A stretch of DNA of 64,000 bases. It comes from Haloplanus vescus. Its GTDB lineage: Archaea; Halobacteriota; Halobacteria; Halobacteriales; Haloferacaceae. Positions within the stretch are counted from its first letter, which is position 1; each line of letters starts with the position of its first letter. The stretch lies in NCBI RefSeq assembly GCF_900107665.1, contig NZ_FNQT01000002.1:64286-128285 (forward strand), written 5' to 3'. The notes below the pieces were generated by a model, which was not told where the DNA came from, ran no database searches, and saw only the letters and a program-made list of their open reading frames with translations. Positions 9,800-15,017 of this stretch are shown piece by piece. The position numbers and the translations under genes were made by a program.

Positions 9800-10209
9800 T
9801 CCCGCCGATACTGAATCGCCGCCCCGTTTTCGAAGAACTCCGGCAGGCGTTCGACTCGTTCGAACCCACACGCTCGGTACAGCGACTGCGCTGCCTCGTT
9901 GTCGGCCGCGACGGTGACGGTCAGGGAGTCGCCACCCTCTGCACACGCCTCCAAGAGTGCTCGCGCCCGCCCCTCGCGGCGATGGGCCGGCGCGACGACC
10001 AGTTCGGCGACGTACACCGTCTCGTCGCCGGGGACGGCGAGGGCGTAGCCGACGACGGCGCCGTCCGCAACCGAGACGAGCGCCGTTGCCGGCGTCGGCG
10101 CCCCCGTCTCGCCGAGCGCGCTCTCCAAGAGCGCCGGACTGGGTTCGGGGAGCAACGACTGTAGGTGAGTGAGTCGGTCAGCGTCTGCCGGCGTCGCCGG
10201 GCGAATCAC
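9796..10209 (-). CDS. GNAT-family N-acetyltransferase
   Basis: A 137-residue protein starting with GTG at 10209; the GTGA overlaps the stop of the upstream DUF92 gene, so translation is probably coupled. The GNAT core is plain: V-A-E-L-V-V-A-P-A-H-R-R-E-G-R-A-R-A-L-L gives the strand plus the acetyl-CoA pyrophosphate loop, and N-E-A-A-Q-S-L-Y-R-A-C-G-F is the last motif. RimI-like length. The substrate cannot be assigned. Confidence 0.88.
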   Translation of the reverse strand: MIRPATPADADRLTHLQSLLPEPSPALLESALGETGAPTPATALVSVADGAVVGYALAVPGDETVYVAELVVAPAHRREGRARALLEACAEGGDSLTVTVAADNEAAQSLYRACGFERVERLPEFFENGAAIQYRRD

Positions 10210-11519
10210 AGGACGAGAACGGCGAGGACGGCGCTCGTGACGGCGCCCCCGAGCGTGCCGAGGAAGTTGACCGTCTGGTTACCGACGCGCCCGCCTTCGA
10301 GCGTCGCCCCGAGGACGCTGTCGACGGTCATGCCTGCGACGCCGCCGGCGACGACGGTAAGGGCCGCGAGCGCCGGCGCGTCGAACGTGAAGCCGATAAC
10401 GGCGACGGCGGCGACGATGGCGGCGCCGACGACGCCGACGGCGTAGCCCTGCCACGTGACCCCGCCGTCGGTGCCGGGTTCGACGCGTTCGAGCGTCGTG
10501 ATGAGTCGGGGCTCACCGAACAGGACGCCGATTTCGCTGGAGAGGGTGTCGCTCATGGCGGCGGCGAGCGATCCGGTGAACGCGAACTGGAAGAGTGCGG
10601 GGTCGAGTTGCATGTTACTGCTCGCGGCGAAGCCGATGACGGCCACGAGCGCCACCGCCGCGTTGCCGAGGACGTTCCCGCTCCCCCGGGCGCCCTCGTT
10701 GTCCTCGGCGACGCCGCGTTCGCTCTTCTCCTCGTAGCGGTACTTCGCGGAGAGGCCGCCGATGCCGAAGAAGGCGATGAGGATGGCGAACCAGCCGATA
10801 CCACCGAAGACGATGGTGAGGAGGCCGAGCAAGACGCCGGTCACCATCCCCGGGACGGAGGCGGTGCCGGTCCGATAGGAGACGTAGCCGAGGGCGACGG
10901 TCACGGCGAGTGCGACGCCGACGTTGACGATGCCGGCGTCGACGCCGATGACGTCGAACAGCCAGAGCAAGAGCCCCGTCGAGAGCATCACGATGGGGTC
11001 GTCGCGTTCGTAGAGCATCGACCGCAAGAGTGCGGCGACGAGGGCGCCCGCGGCGGCGAGAAAGACCACCGACGCTGGCGTCGGCGTTCGACCCAGCGCC
11101 ATCGCGACGAGCACTTGGCCGGCGGCTGCCGCGAGGAAGGCGACGGTACTGAAGCCGGCGACCGACCGTCCCGGGTCGCTCCACAGTCGCTCCACGGCGC
11201 GAGCGCCGACGTTCCCGTACGCGACGACGAGGACGGCGGCGACGAACACGCCCGTCGGCATCGACTCCCGGGGCGCCGTGGCGAGGATAGCGAGGCCGGT
11301 GGCGGCCAGAGAGAAGCCGGCGAGGCCGTTGAGCCGGCCGTCGCGGCGGTCCTGTGGCCGGGCGAAGAGGTCGAAGACCGGCCCCTCGTCGATGACGAAC
11401 GCAGCGAGGAGCGCGACGATAGCGAAGGGGGCGGCGGCCGCCCGCCCGAGTTCGGGCGCAGCGAGCGCGAGCGTTCCGACCGCCGCGAACCCTCCTGCCC
11501 GTCGAAGGGTGGACGTCAC
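10206..11519 (-). CDS. DUF92 membrane protein (phytyl/prenyl-phosphate kinase-like)
   Basis: A 437-residue protein starting with GTG 11519, with about 11-13 hydrophobic helices. The C-terminal half carries family features: G-I-G-G-L-S-A-K-Y-R-Y-E-E-K-S and the acidic helix start S-L-A-A-A-M-S-D-T-L-S-S-E-I-G, then M-T-V-D-S-V-L-G-A-T-L-E. DUF92 includes plant VTE6, a phytyl-phosphate kinase, so a CTP-dependent prenyl-phosphate kinase is plausible. The extended N-terminal half is usual for haloarchaeal members. It is divergent from the cis-prenyltransferase homologue at 11627, which supports a role in isoprenoid-phosphate metabolism, and coupled to the acetyltransferase downstream. Confidence 0.8.
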   Translation of the reverse strand: MTSTLRRAGGFAAVGTLALAAPELGRAAAAPFAIVALLAAFVIDEGPVFDLFARPQDRRDGRLNGLAGFSLAATGLAILATAPRESMPTGVFVAAVLVVAYGNVGARAVERLWSDPGRSVAGFSTVAFLAAAAGQVLVAMALGRTPTPASVVFLAAAGALVAALLRSMLYERDDPIVMLSTGLLLWLFDVIGVDAGIVNVGVALAVTVALGYVSYRTGTASVPGMVTGVLLGLLTIVFGGIGWFAILIAFFGIGGLSAKYRYEEKSERGVAEDNEGARGSGNVLGNAAVALVAVIGFAASSNMQLDPALFQFAFTGSLAAAMSDTLSSEIGVLFGEPRLITTLERVEPGTDGGVTWQGYAVGVVGAAIVAAVAVIGFTFDAPALAALTVVAGGVAGMTVDSVLGATLEGGRVGNQTVNFLGTLGGAVTSAVLAVLVL

Positions 11520-11626: not shown

Positions 11627-12235
11627 GTGGGCCTGTACGACCGCTATCTCGCGCTCAGGCAGCGCTTTCACCCCGGCGACCCGCCAGCACACGTCGCGCT
11701 CGTCCTCACGGAGCGGGACCTGTTGGAACAGGGGGCGTACGACCGCCTCGAACGCCTCCTCGGGTGGGTCTTCGACTACGGCGCCGAACGCGCCACCGTC
11801 TCCGTGAGCGTCCTCGACGAGTCCGTGGTGCCGACGCTGGAGCGCGAACTCCGCTCGCTCTCCGTACCTCGCCGCGTCGCCGTCCGCGCTCCGGACGACA
11901 CCGACCCCGTCGACGCGCCCGTGCAGGTGAACGTCGGCCTCGGCGGCAAAGGCGAGTTCGCCGCCGCCGTCCGCTCGCTCGCTTCCGAAGTCGACGCCGG
12001 CGAACTCGACCCGAGCGACGTGGACGAGGCGGACGTGGAACGTCGGCTGGTCTTCCCCGACGAACCCGACCTGCTCATCAAGACCGGCGCCGAACGCCTC
12101 TCGGATTTCATGATTTGGCAGTCCGTCTACTCCGAACTCTACTTCATCGACGTGAACTGGCGGGACGTCCGCGAGCGCGACTACCTCCGGGCAGTGCTGG
12201 ACTACCAGAACCGCCAGCGTCGCTTCGGGCGGTAG
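11627..12235 (+). CDS. Short, catalytically divergent cis-prenyltransferase (UppS) homologue
   Basis: A 202-residue protein starting with GTG 11627. The C-terminal half is clearly of the UppS family: P-D-L-L-I-K-T-G-A-E-R-L-S-D-F-M-I-W-Q, then Y-S-E-L-Y-F, corresponds to region V (R-T-x-G-E-x-R-x-S-N-F-L-x-W-Q). The N-terminal half lacks the D-G-N-R-R pyrophosphate loop; the matching place reads V-A-L-V-L-T-E-R-D-L. Region IV is degenerate (V-N-V-G-L-G-G-K-G-E). The arginine of I-R-T is a lysine. By analogy with NgBR/Nus1 it may be a non-catalytic partner of a true cis-prenyltransferase such as the one at 14082-15017. Confidence 0.85.
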   Translation: MGLYDRYLALRQRFHPGDPPAHVALVLTERDLLEQGAYDRLERLLGWVFDYGAERATVSVSVLDESVVPTLERELRSLSVPRRVAVRAPDDTDPVDAPVQVNVGLGGKGEFAAAVRSLASEVDAGELDPSDVDEADVERRLVFPDEPDLLIKTGAERLSDFMIWQSVYSELYFIDVNWRDVRERDYLRAVLDYQNRQRRFGR

Positions 12236-12239
12236 GCCG

Positions 12240-12926
12240 CTATTCGCTCGTCGCCGTCTCGTTCGCCGTCCCGGTGCTCGTCGCCTCTATCGACTCGTAA
12301 CTCACCGTCGTCTCCTGTGCGACCGGTTTGAGGAGGTACGACCCGCTCTGCCCTCGCTTGACGGGCGTGAAGTCGGCGGTGAACTGCGTCCGCGTGTTCT
12401 CCCGAATGTCGAAGGACTGCTTGAACTGCAGGGGGGCGTTGCCCGGCGTGTCCACCGTCGCGTCGCCGCCGTCGGCGAGGGTTGCCTCGACGCCCGTCAC
12501 GTCGAGCTGGAGGAAGGCGTACGTCCCCGTCTCAAGTTCCTGCTCGCCGATGAGCGCCGAGCGGTCGCCCTGCAGCTCCACGAGGTCGGCCTCCTGCGGG
12601 CTCTCCAACTCGTGGTACTGGCGCGCGTCGCTCTCGTCGGGAGTCTCGGTGCTCTCGGAGTCCGACTCCGTTTCCGTCGCCGTCGCGTCCGATTCCTCGT
12701 CGCTCTCCGGTTTCACCCAGTAGCCTGCGATAGTGACGACACAGGACTCGAAGTCGCCGATGTCGCCCGGTTGGTCGCTCACGCGCGTCGCGAGCGTGCC
12801 GGTCGCGGCTTCGGCGCCGCCCATACAGCCGGCCAGTCCCGCGACGCTCGCGGCGGCCGCCGCGCCAGTCGCTCGCAGGTAGTCACGTCGCGATGCCGTC
12901 GCCGATTCGTGGTCGTGTTCGTTCAC
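12240..12926 (-). CDS. DUF4382 lipoprotein, Tat-exported
   Basis: A 228-residue protein. The N-terminus has a twin-arginine motif (S-R-R-D-Y-L-R-A-T) and a lipobox L-A-G-C at about residue 34, so the mature protein should be lipid-anchored outside the cell. The body has the DUF4382 pattern: a first strand with L-A-T-R-V-S-D-Q-P-G-D-I-G-D-F, then G-T-Y-A-F-L-Q-L-D-V and F-K-Q-S-F-D-I. A Ser/Thr/Glu-rich insertion (about residues 73-100) is low complexity. Function of the family is unknown. It is convergent with the UppS-like gene, with stops 5 bases apart. Confidence 0.85.
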   Translation of the reverse strand: MNEHDHESATASRRDYLRATGAAAAASVAGLAGCMGGAEAATGTLATRVSDQPGDIGDFESCVVTIAGYWVKPESDEESDATATETESDSESTETPDESDARQYHELESPQEADLVELQGDRSALIGEQELETGTYAFLQLDVTGVEATLADGGDATVDTPGNAPLQFKQSFDIRENTRTQFTADFTPVKRGQSGSYLLKPVAQETTVSYESIEATSTGTANETATSE

Positions 12927-13152: not shown

Positions 13153-14037
13153 TCAGTTCTCTCGGTCCACTTCGAGTCGGCCTTCGAGCTCCCGTTTCGA
13201 CGCCGGGCTGATGGTGATGCCCGCGTCGTCAAGGCGGCGCTTGACCGCGCGGGCGTACGCCGACCGAATCCCGAAGACGTCCTGCCGTCGGGGGTCGCTG
13301 ATCCAGAAGTGGACGCGGACGACGATGGCGTCGTCGCCGAAGTCGTCGACGTACGCCTTCGGCGTCGGCTCCCGTTCGATGGCCTCGACGGCCTCTGTCG
13401 CCGCCGTGAGGTGATCGAGCGCGTCGCTCACGTCGTCCTCGTAGGCGACGCCGACGTGTTCGACGACGCGCCGACGCCCCCGTCCGTAGGGTCGCGTGAT
13501 GGACTGGCTCGTCAACACCGTGTTCGGTACCGTGACGAGTTCACCGTTCGGCGTCAGGACGCGCGTCACGCGGAGCGTGATGGACTGGACGGTCCCCTCG
13601 CCGTCCTCCCACTCGATGTAGTTGCCGACGTTGAACTCGGGGTCGACGACCAGCACCAGTCCGCTGACGATGGAGCCGATGACCGTCTGGCCAGCGACGC
13701 CGACGGCGAGCGTCCCCGCGGCGACGACGAGCGCGGAGTCACCGACGAACCCGCCGTAGCCAGCCGTCCCCGCCGCGACGAAGAAGGCGACGACGAGGAC
13801 GAACAGGCGGACGTACCGCTCGACGGCCTCCTGAATCGTCGGGTTGTTTCGGTTGCGACGCTTGACGTACTCGCCGACGACCGGTTCGACCACGAACCAG
13901 CCGACGAACGTGACGGCGACGAAGCCGACGACGAACCACACGCCGCGCCGGACGACCGGCCAGTAGTCGGCGAGGCCCGCCGGGCCGGGGGTCGACGGCG
14001 GGACTTCCGTGGCCGTCTGGAGCAGAACGTCGAGCAT
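13153..14037 (-). CDS. MscS-family mechanosensitive channel
   Basis: A 294-residue protein from the ATG at 14037. Helices at about residues 25-50, 70-95 and 100-125 precede the pore-lining, glycine/alanine-rich helix (G-T-L-A-V-G-V-A-G-Q-T-V-I-G-S-I-V-S-G). The beta domain then follows: F-N-V-G-N-Y-I-E-W-E-D-G-E-G-T-V with N-T-V-L-T-S-Q-S-I-T-R. Such channels release solutes on hypo-osmotic shock. It lies 44 bases downstream of uppS on the same strand and is probably co-transcribed. Confidence 0.93.
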   Translation of the reverse strand: MLDVLLQTATEVPPSTPGPAGLADYWPVVRRGVWFVVGFVAVTFVGWFVVEPVVGEYVKRRNRNNPTIQEAVERYVRLFVLVVAFFVAAGTAGYGGFVGDSALVVAAGTLAVGVAGQTVIGSIVSGLVLVVDPEFNVGNYIEWEDGEGTVQSITLRVTRVLTPNGELVTVPNTVLTSQSITRPYGRGRRRVVEHVGVAYEDDVSDALDHLTAATEAVEAIEREPTPKAYVDDFGDDAIVVRVHFWISDPRRQDVFGIRSAYARAVKRRLDDAGITISPASKRELEGRLEVDREN

Positions 14038-14081
14038 ACGCTCGCCGACGGGCGGGCTACACAAAGGTCCTCGGCGGGCGG

Positions 14082-15017
14082 TCAGTCCGCCGCGCCGTCG
14101 CGTTCCGTCTCCACGGGCACGCCGTCGACGAGTTCGTCCGCGCCGACGTGGGGGAGTTGCTCGCGCAGGCGCCCGACCACCTCACGGGTTTCGACGAGCG
14201 ACGACCCCGCGACGGCCCGAATCAAGGCGACAGCACGCTCGCGGCGCGTGTGGCGCCACGACGCCTCACGCGCTTCGTAGGTGCGGATGGCGCGCAGGAA
14301 ATCTATCTTCGAGAACTCGGGCCAGTAGGGCGCACAGAAGAAGACGGCGGCCTCGTTGCCGTTCGCGTGCCACGGCAGGAAGTTGCTCGTCCGCTCGTCG
14401 CCGCCAGTCCGAACGATGAGGTCCACGTCGCGGACGGGCCGGGCGTAGAGGCGACGCTCGATGGCCTCGACGGTCACGTCCTCTGGGTCGAGGTTCCCCT
14501 CGTCGACGGCGCGGAGCGTGTCGCGGGCGGCGCTCAGCAGCTCGGCCCGTCCCCCGTAGGCCAGCGCGACGTTCAGTCGGAACCGGTCGTATCCCTCGGT
14601 CCGTGACTCCGCGTGCGCGACAGCGTCGCGGACGCGTTCGGGTAGGCGCTCGATATCGCCCAGCGCGCGGATGCACACCTCGTTCTCGTGAATCTGGTCG
14701 TGGTCGGCGAACTCCCGGAGCTTCGACTCGATGAGGTCGAAGAGGTGTTCGCGCTCCGCTCGCGGGCGCTCGAAGTTCTCCGTCGAGAAGGCATAGAGCG
14801 TGAGTTCCTCGACGCCGAGGTCCTGACACCACCGAAGCACCTGCTCGGTGGTCTGGGCGCCCTCGCGGTAGCCGTCGGTGGTGCCGTCGCCGCGCTCGCG
14901 GGCGTAGCGCCGGTTGCCGTCTTGGATGACGGCGACGTGGCTCGGGCCGTCGTCGATGTTACGACGGAGCAGACGCTCGTAGGCGCGTCGCCCCAGTCGC
15001 CGGACCCGACTTCGCAT
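14082..15017 (-). CDS. uppS: cis-Prenyltransferase (undecaprenyl/dolichyl diphosphate synthase family)
   Basis: A 311-residue protein. It makes long cis-polyprenyl diphosphate from isopentenyl diphosphate, in archaea the lipid carrier for glycosylation. All catalytic regions are present: Q-D-G-N-R-R-Y-A near residue 32, T-L-Y-A-F-S-T-E-N-F, A-L-A-Y-G-G-R-A-E and I-V-R-T-G-G-D-E-R-T-S-N-F-L-P-W. It is longer than bacterial UppS (about 250), with a basic N-terminal 25 residues and a C-terminal tail. Divergent from cofH. A degenerate paralogue lies at 11627-12235. Confidence 0.95.
   Translation of the reverse strand: MRSRVRRLGRRAYERLLRRNIDDGPSHVAVIQDGNRRYARERGDGTTDGYREGAQTTEQVLRWCQDLGVEELTLYAFSTENFERPRAEREHLFDLIESKLREFADHDQIHENEVCIRALGDIERLPERVRDAVAHAESRTEGYDRFRLNVALAYGGRAELLSAARDTLRAVDEGNLDPEDVTVEAIERRLYARPVRDVDLIVRTGGDERTSNFLPWHANGNEAAVFFCAPYWPEFSKIDFLRAIRTYEAREASWRHTRRERAVALIRAVAGSSLVETREVVGRLREQLPHVGADELVDGVPVETERDGAAD

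Follow-up and report, generated by a model that had tools for sequence, protein, structure and literature searches.

A degenerate cis-prenyltransferase homologue of haloarchaea is very probably the non-catalytic partner of UppS

The window analyzed here, a stretch of 64,000 nt from Haloplanus vescus, carries two genes of the cis-prenyltransferase (cPT) family. The first (11627-12235, + strand) is an intact open reading frame with a GTG start, and its reading frame, Pfam match, predicted structure and conservation mark the 202-aa product as a putative non-catalytic (NgBR-like) cPT subunit. Its PF01255 match covers residues 97-201 only (profile positions 115-219 of 219; E 2.9e-24), and its TIGR00055 score of 80.3 lies below the cut-off of 109.55. 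The second (14082-15017, - strand) encodes a 311-aa UppS, the proposed catalytic subunit, with a PF01255 match of E 1e-68 and a TIGR00055 score of 233.8, which passes that cut-off. The family models tie the short protein to UppS, though synthase activity would not be expected of it alone. The initial annotation had described a complete UppS about 2 kb away and a divergent DUF92 neighbor, and both were borne out: the gap to the UppS gene is 1,846 bp, and a DUF92 (PF01940) membrane protein gene (10206-11519, - strand) lies 107 bp from the short gene in divergent orientation. Between the two cPT genes are genes for a DUF4382 protein (12240-12926), with a Tat-like signal at its start as judged by eye, and for an MscS-type channel (13153-14064). 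The window genome (2.78 Mb, 99.8% complete) contained exactly two PF01255 loci, one complete and one degenerate.

Alignment and a site table based on E. coli UppS showed that T-E-R-D (residues 28-31; 11708-11719, + strand) occupies the position of the D-G-N-R-R catalytic loop, which is absent from the short protein, as the initial annotation had proposed. Residues E29 and D31 were invariant in a 29-sequence alignment. Region V (K152-W164; 12080-12118, + strand) was kept in the C-terminal half as claimed, albeit with a deletion of one residue relative to catalytic cPTs and with R194 (E. coli numbering) replaced by K. Region IV had been called lost; it is instead altered, with its G-G-(K/R) core retained (G147 and K/R148, each in 46/46 short proteins) and variation at N144 and Y145. 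The chain ends in R-F-G-R (residues 199-202; 12221-12232, + strand), which in our alignments is an R-x-G tail followed by one residue and the stop codon; an equivalent ending is described for NgBR (PMC7573591). Neither sequence nor model gave an N-terminal transmembrane anchor, and the chain goes straight into the cPT domain, beginning with a short charged helix (residues 3-13). Most relatives measured 201-205 aa; the short proteins of the Halorubrum loci L151, L155, L157, L160, L166, L170, L178 and L180 have an insertion and reach 218-232 aa.

A structural model of the short protein (35 sequences, built with 34 of the 35 thinned relatives; pLDDT 81.7, pTM 0.76) predicted strands and helices in the order typical of cPTs from one end to the other. 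In VIA-align it matched NgBR (7pax_B; Z 13.1, residues 1-202, rmsd 4.4, 178 aligned) and DHDDS (7pb1_A; Z 13.4, rmsd 3.5, 189 aligned), with Z values tied among NgBR, DHDDS and bacterial UppS. The modeled UppS matched DHDDS 7pb1_A with Z 27.6 (rmsd 2.4, 244 aligned; the structure alignment had 28 rows and left out L137). Judged by its model, the short protein is not half a gene; what is missing are the loops that bear the donor-site residues. The N-terminal losses of the initial annotation hold for the substrate loops, which are deleted, but not for the half itself, which is degenerate yet complete, with its strands and helices present.

We tabulated active-site positions, in E. coli UppS numbering, for 46 short proteins (13 haloarchaeal, 33 other) and 30 long proteins (12 haloarchaeal, 18 other). 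The long proteins had D26, G27, N28, R30 and R77 in 30/30 cases and lacked G244 in all 30. Among short proteins, R39 was absent from 46/46 and R77 fell in a gap in 44/46, and the 13 haloarchaeal members uniformly had T for D26, R for N28 and L for R30; E213, R242 and G244, like G147, were kept in 46/46. Over a wider set, R242 and G244 (R-x-G) occurred together in 166/166 different short and 0/146 different long proteins, counts that exclude UppS fragments of less than 285 aa and the MM_0014-type proteins L212 and L214, include L137 (N-terminus out of frame), and were made apart from divergent sequences found later (G202, G211) and the long protein of G267. Two long proteins had an R-x-G-like triplet nearby, out of register, and the D26 equivalent was D in 6/166 short proteins, all from other families of the phylum. 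Neither window protein combines the catalytic loop with R-x-G. The homodimeric UppS of E. coli, IspU, has the same fold (PF01255), but there the catalytic residues and R-x-G lie on one chain and here on two.

The window UppS carries its D-G-N-R-R loop at residues 33-37 (14907-14921, - strand; alignment and site table). At the position where homodimeric enzymes have R-x-G it reads S-W-R (residues 253-255; 14253-14261, - strand; site table and motif counts), and the chain continues into a C-terminal extension from residue 255 on (14082-14255, - strand; sequence and predicted structure). Helices were predicted at 237-270, 275-287 and 290-299, with low confidence beyond about residue 260. In 72 tails measured, the length past the R-T-Y motif was 40-95 residues. 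Several haloarchaeal genomes have three or four PF01255 matches, and two genomes (G068, L085; G148, L093) encode an additional UppS that carries D-G-N-R-R and lacks R-x-G; a single short protein may there serve both catalytic subunits.

The human enzyme illustrates how such a tail can act. According to the description of the complex in PMC7573591, the NgBR end R290-L291-G292-K293 crosses the interface into the DHDDS active site, where L291 and G292 coordinate the IPP-site phosphate through their backbone and K293 contacts DHDDS R37 and R85; the C-terminal helix-turn-helix of DHDDS is described there as incompatible with such a contact network between two DHDDS chains. It is thus the R-x-G tail that reaches the partner's site in that complex, and not region V, to which the initial annotation had given this role. 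The catalytic subunits are alike in having a C-terminal helical extension, and R-L-G-K in NgBR corresponds to R-F-G-R in the window short protein. The latter differs from NgBR and Nus1 in lacking an N-terminal membrane anchor and in keeping region V better. The tail is not indispensable everywhere, since yeast Nus1 is described as being without the Arg of R-x-G (PMC7573591).

We assessed whether the two proteins occur together. In a class-wide draw, the short protein was present in 194/194 haloarchaeal genomes and a full-length UppS in 193/194, with a best E of 1.8e-65 or better. The remaining genome (G072, a draft of 120 contigs) yielded only the short protein (L257), and its UppS is probably missing through an assembly gap. 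In a phylum-wide draw the short protein was found in 116/120 genomes; it was clear in 114/120, with a best E of 1.2e-27 or better against 4.2e-26 for the best long-type protein among the matches listed. Genomes G202 and G211 encode, along with long proteins lacking R-x-G, very divergent short proteins that end in D-R-R-F-G-A and E-R-R-F-G-R. One of the 120, G267 (89% complete), had the long protein only. The remaining 3/120 belong to one family, f17, in which no PF01255 match over the cut-off was obtained in 5/5 genomes searched (G200, G209, G218, G338 and G339; two of the five at least 90% complete). These archaea may be without any cis-prenyltransferase, and both subunits are thus absent together. 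In a tree of 78 rows, made by a quick method and with long branches flagged, short and long proteins fell into two separate clades (SH-aLRT 99 and 92), the pattern that a single old duplication would leave. Among viral contigs, 40 pattern matches included no relative.

The gene neighborhood was compared in the best 80 of 592 haloarchaeal loci found. The UppS gene lay within the flanks in 56/80 and was convergent with the short gene in 56/56; the DUF92 gene was present in 60/80 and divergent in 60/60. Loci without UppS in the examined flanks were mostly from Halorubrum, along with short contigs. In many relatives only 10-100 bp separate the cPT genes; in Halobacterium salinarum (L156) the distance is 26 bp. 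Convergence was also seen outside the class (G199, G217, G239), and in some genomes, such as G033, G050 and G008, the cPT genes were far apart or on different contigs. As the two cPT genes face each other, they do not form one operon. The DUF92 and short genes may have a common promoter region and may both serve one lipid pathway. In the divergent family f19 (L258, L259), the short gene adjoins one encoding a multi-pass membrane protein that by eye resembles an archaeal presenilin-type protease.

Two-subunit cPTs have precedents in the same phylum. Emi et al. (2019) reportedly described a heteromeric M. mazei cPT formed by MM_0618 and MM_1083, and a heteromeric cPT of Archaeoglobus fulgidus, another archaeal two-subunit enzyme, is said to have appeared in J. 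Biochem. in 2022. The M. mazei paralogues MM_0618 and MM_1083 are stated to form a heteromeric cPT with C45-50 products (PMC8131916). We identified G298 as Methanosarcina because its third cPT, of 223 aa, is a close match to both the MM_0014 chain of M. mazei (441 bits) and the 7vq9 chain (452 bits). Its other clear cPTs are a long protein without R-x-G (L211, a 343-aa frame) and a short one ending in R-R-Y-G-R (L213); a fourth PF01255 match was weak (E 0.119). L211 and L213 grouped in the tree with the window UppS and short protein, respectively, and by elimination would be of the MM_0618/MM_1083 type. The M. mazei pair would then represent the same two orthologous genes, one with D-G-N-R-R and without R-x-G, the other the reverse. 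The arrangements differ: in G298 the pair lies about 0.6 Mb apart and is accompanied by the MM_0014-type cPT, whereas the window genome has two cPTs near each other. Human DHDDS/NgBR and yeast Rer2/Nus1 likewise combine one catalytic and one dead subunit, and archaeal dolichols, given as 8-12 units (PMC4476749), are shorter than in those two systems.

The relationship to NgBR was examined with profiles. With the haloarchaeal profile, human NUS1 (E 4.6e-4 to 7e-3) was the sole PDB protein whose alignment began at residue 17 and ran to the end; bacterial UppS scored far better, but their alignments were confined to the C-terminal half (85-201 in the best row). The phylum-wide short profile aligned with NUS1 end to end (12-198 to 24-213; E 2.4e-11), but again scored higher with bacterial UppS (119.5 versus 47.5 bits), some of which aligned nearly end to end. 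The haloarchaeal N-terminal half alone had no significant match in the PDB. With 31 phylum-wide sequences, this half retrieved DHDDS (E 1.5e-4) and NUS1 (1.8e-3) first, with a bacterial cPT level with them (2e-3); this suggests, but does not establish, that NgBR is an especially close relative. At the lost D-G position, the alignment has T-E in NgBR, S-E in the archaeal profile and T-E in the window. Common descent of the archaeal short protein and NgBR is possible; their likeness could also reflect the convergence of two dead subunits.

We conclude from these comparisons that the short protein and the UppS encoded at 14082-15017 very probably form a heteromeric polyprenyl diphosphate synthase, with UppS as the catalytic and the short protein as the non-catalytic subunit. 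The initial annotation had considered a haloarchaeal heteromeric synthase plausible, and complementary residues, co-occurrence, convergent adjacency, a common (predicted) fold and Methanosarcina orthology by elimination now lend that proposal strong support. The two proteins would associate by the face that cPTs usually employ for dimerization, with UppS providing the allylic-diphosphate and IPP sites. UppS appears unable to complete its own site, since it has no R-x-G and a helical extension stands there instead; the short protein, its own donor site dead, would lend its R-F-G tail to the UppS site from across the interface. Such an enzyme would make a medium-length polyprenyl diphosphate, the precursor of dolichol phosphate for S-layer N-glycosylation. 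In Haloferax, dolichol phosphate is reported to be the carrier on which N-glycans are assembled (PMC3871713), and this is the likely use of the product.

UppS could instead work alone as a homodimer, and the short protein could have a separate role in regulation or lipid binding, perhaps in concert with the DUF92 membrane protein. In the best 80 of 592 loci, DUF92 accompanies the short gene as constantly as UppS does (60 versus 56), and DHDDS alone retains activity that is described as poor but real in homodimers (PMC7573591). We nevertheless consider this improbable, because the tail used by homodimeric enzymes is missing from 146/146 UppS and found in 166/166 short proteins, and because short and long proteins are present or absent together across the phylum. 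An activity of the short protein itself, for example IPP binding through its nearly complete region V, would account for the retention of the R200, S202 and E213 equivalents in 13/13 haloarchaeal short proteins (E213 in 166/166). The loss of the donor-site residues, and of the loops bearing them, makes this highly improbable; prenyl transfer by the family mechanism is not expected without those residues.

The absence of the catalytic loop might also suggest a decaying UppS copy, or a spurious reading frame. This explanation has practically no standing and was rejected: the gene occurs in 194/194 haloarchaeal genomes, 62 of its 202 residues are invariant among 35 sequences, its length and C-terminus are near-constant among relatives, and dN/dS was 0.11-0.19 in 6/6 pairs drawn from four same-genus sequences. 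Neither chance nor decay would produce this pattern.

Heteromeric cPTs were already known from eukaryotes and Methanosarcina. The literature that we searched, mostly outside subscription journals, gave no prior report of a two-part haloarchaeal cPT; our comparison adds all haloarchaea examined, nearly the whole phylum, and a fully complementary active site. A broader and rather doubtful reading is that the split cPT is ancestral to the phylum, that every haloarchaeon depends on it, and that NgBR/Nus1 of eukaryotes did not arise anew but goes back to an archaeal subunit of this kind. One duplication would have been followed by reciprocal loss of R-x-G and the donor site, and then by obligate pairing. 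The shared T-E, the ending of R-x-G plus one residue and the end-to-end NUS1 profile match would fit such an archaeal origin.

If the two-subunit assignment is correct, the sugar-carrier lipid of all haloarchaea, including the genetically tractable Haloferax and Halobacterium, would come from an enzyme of the NgBR/DHDDS type, and the split would be dated to the base of an archaeal phylum. The haloarchaeal pair would also offer a simple soluble model, free of a membrane anchor, for the human enzyme, whose subunits are encoded by disease genes.
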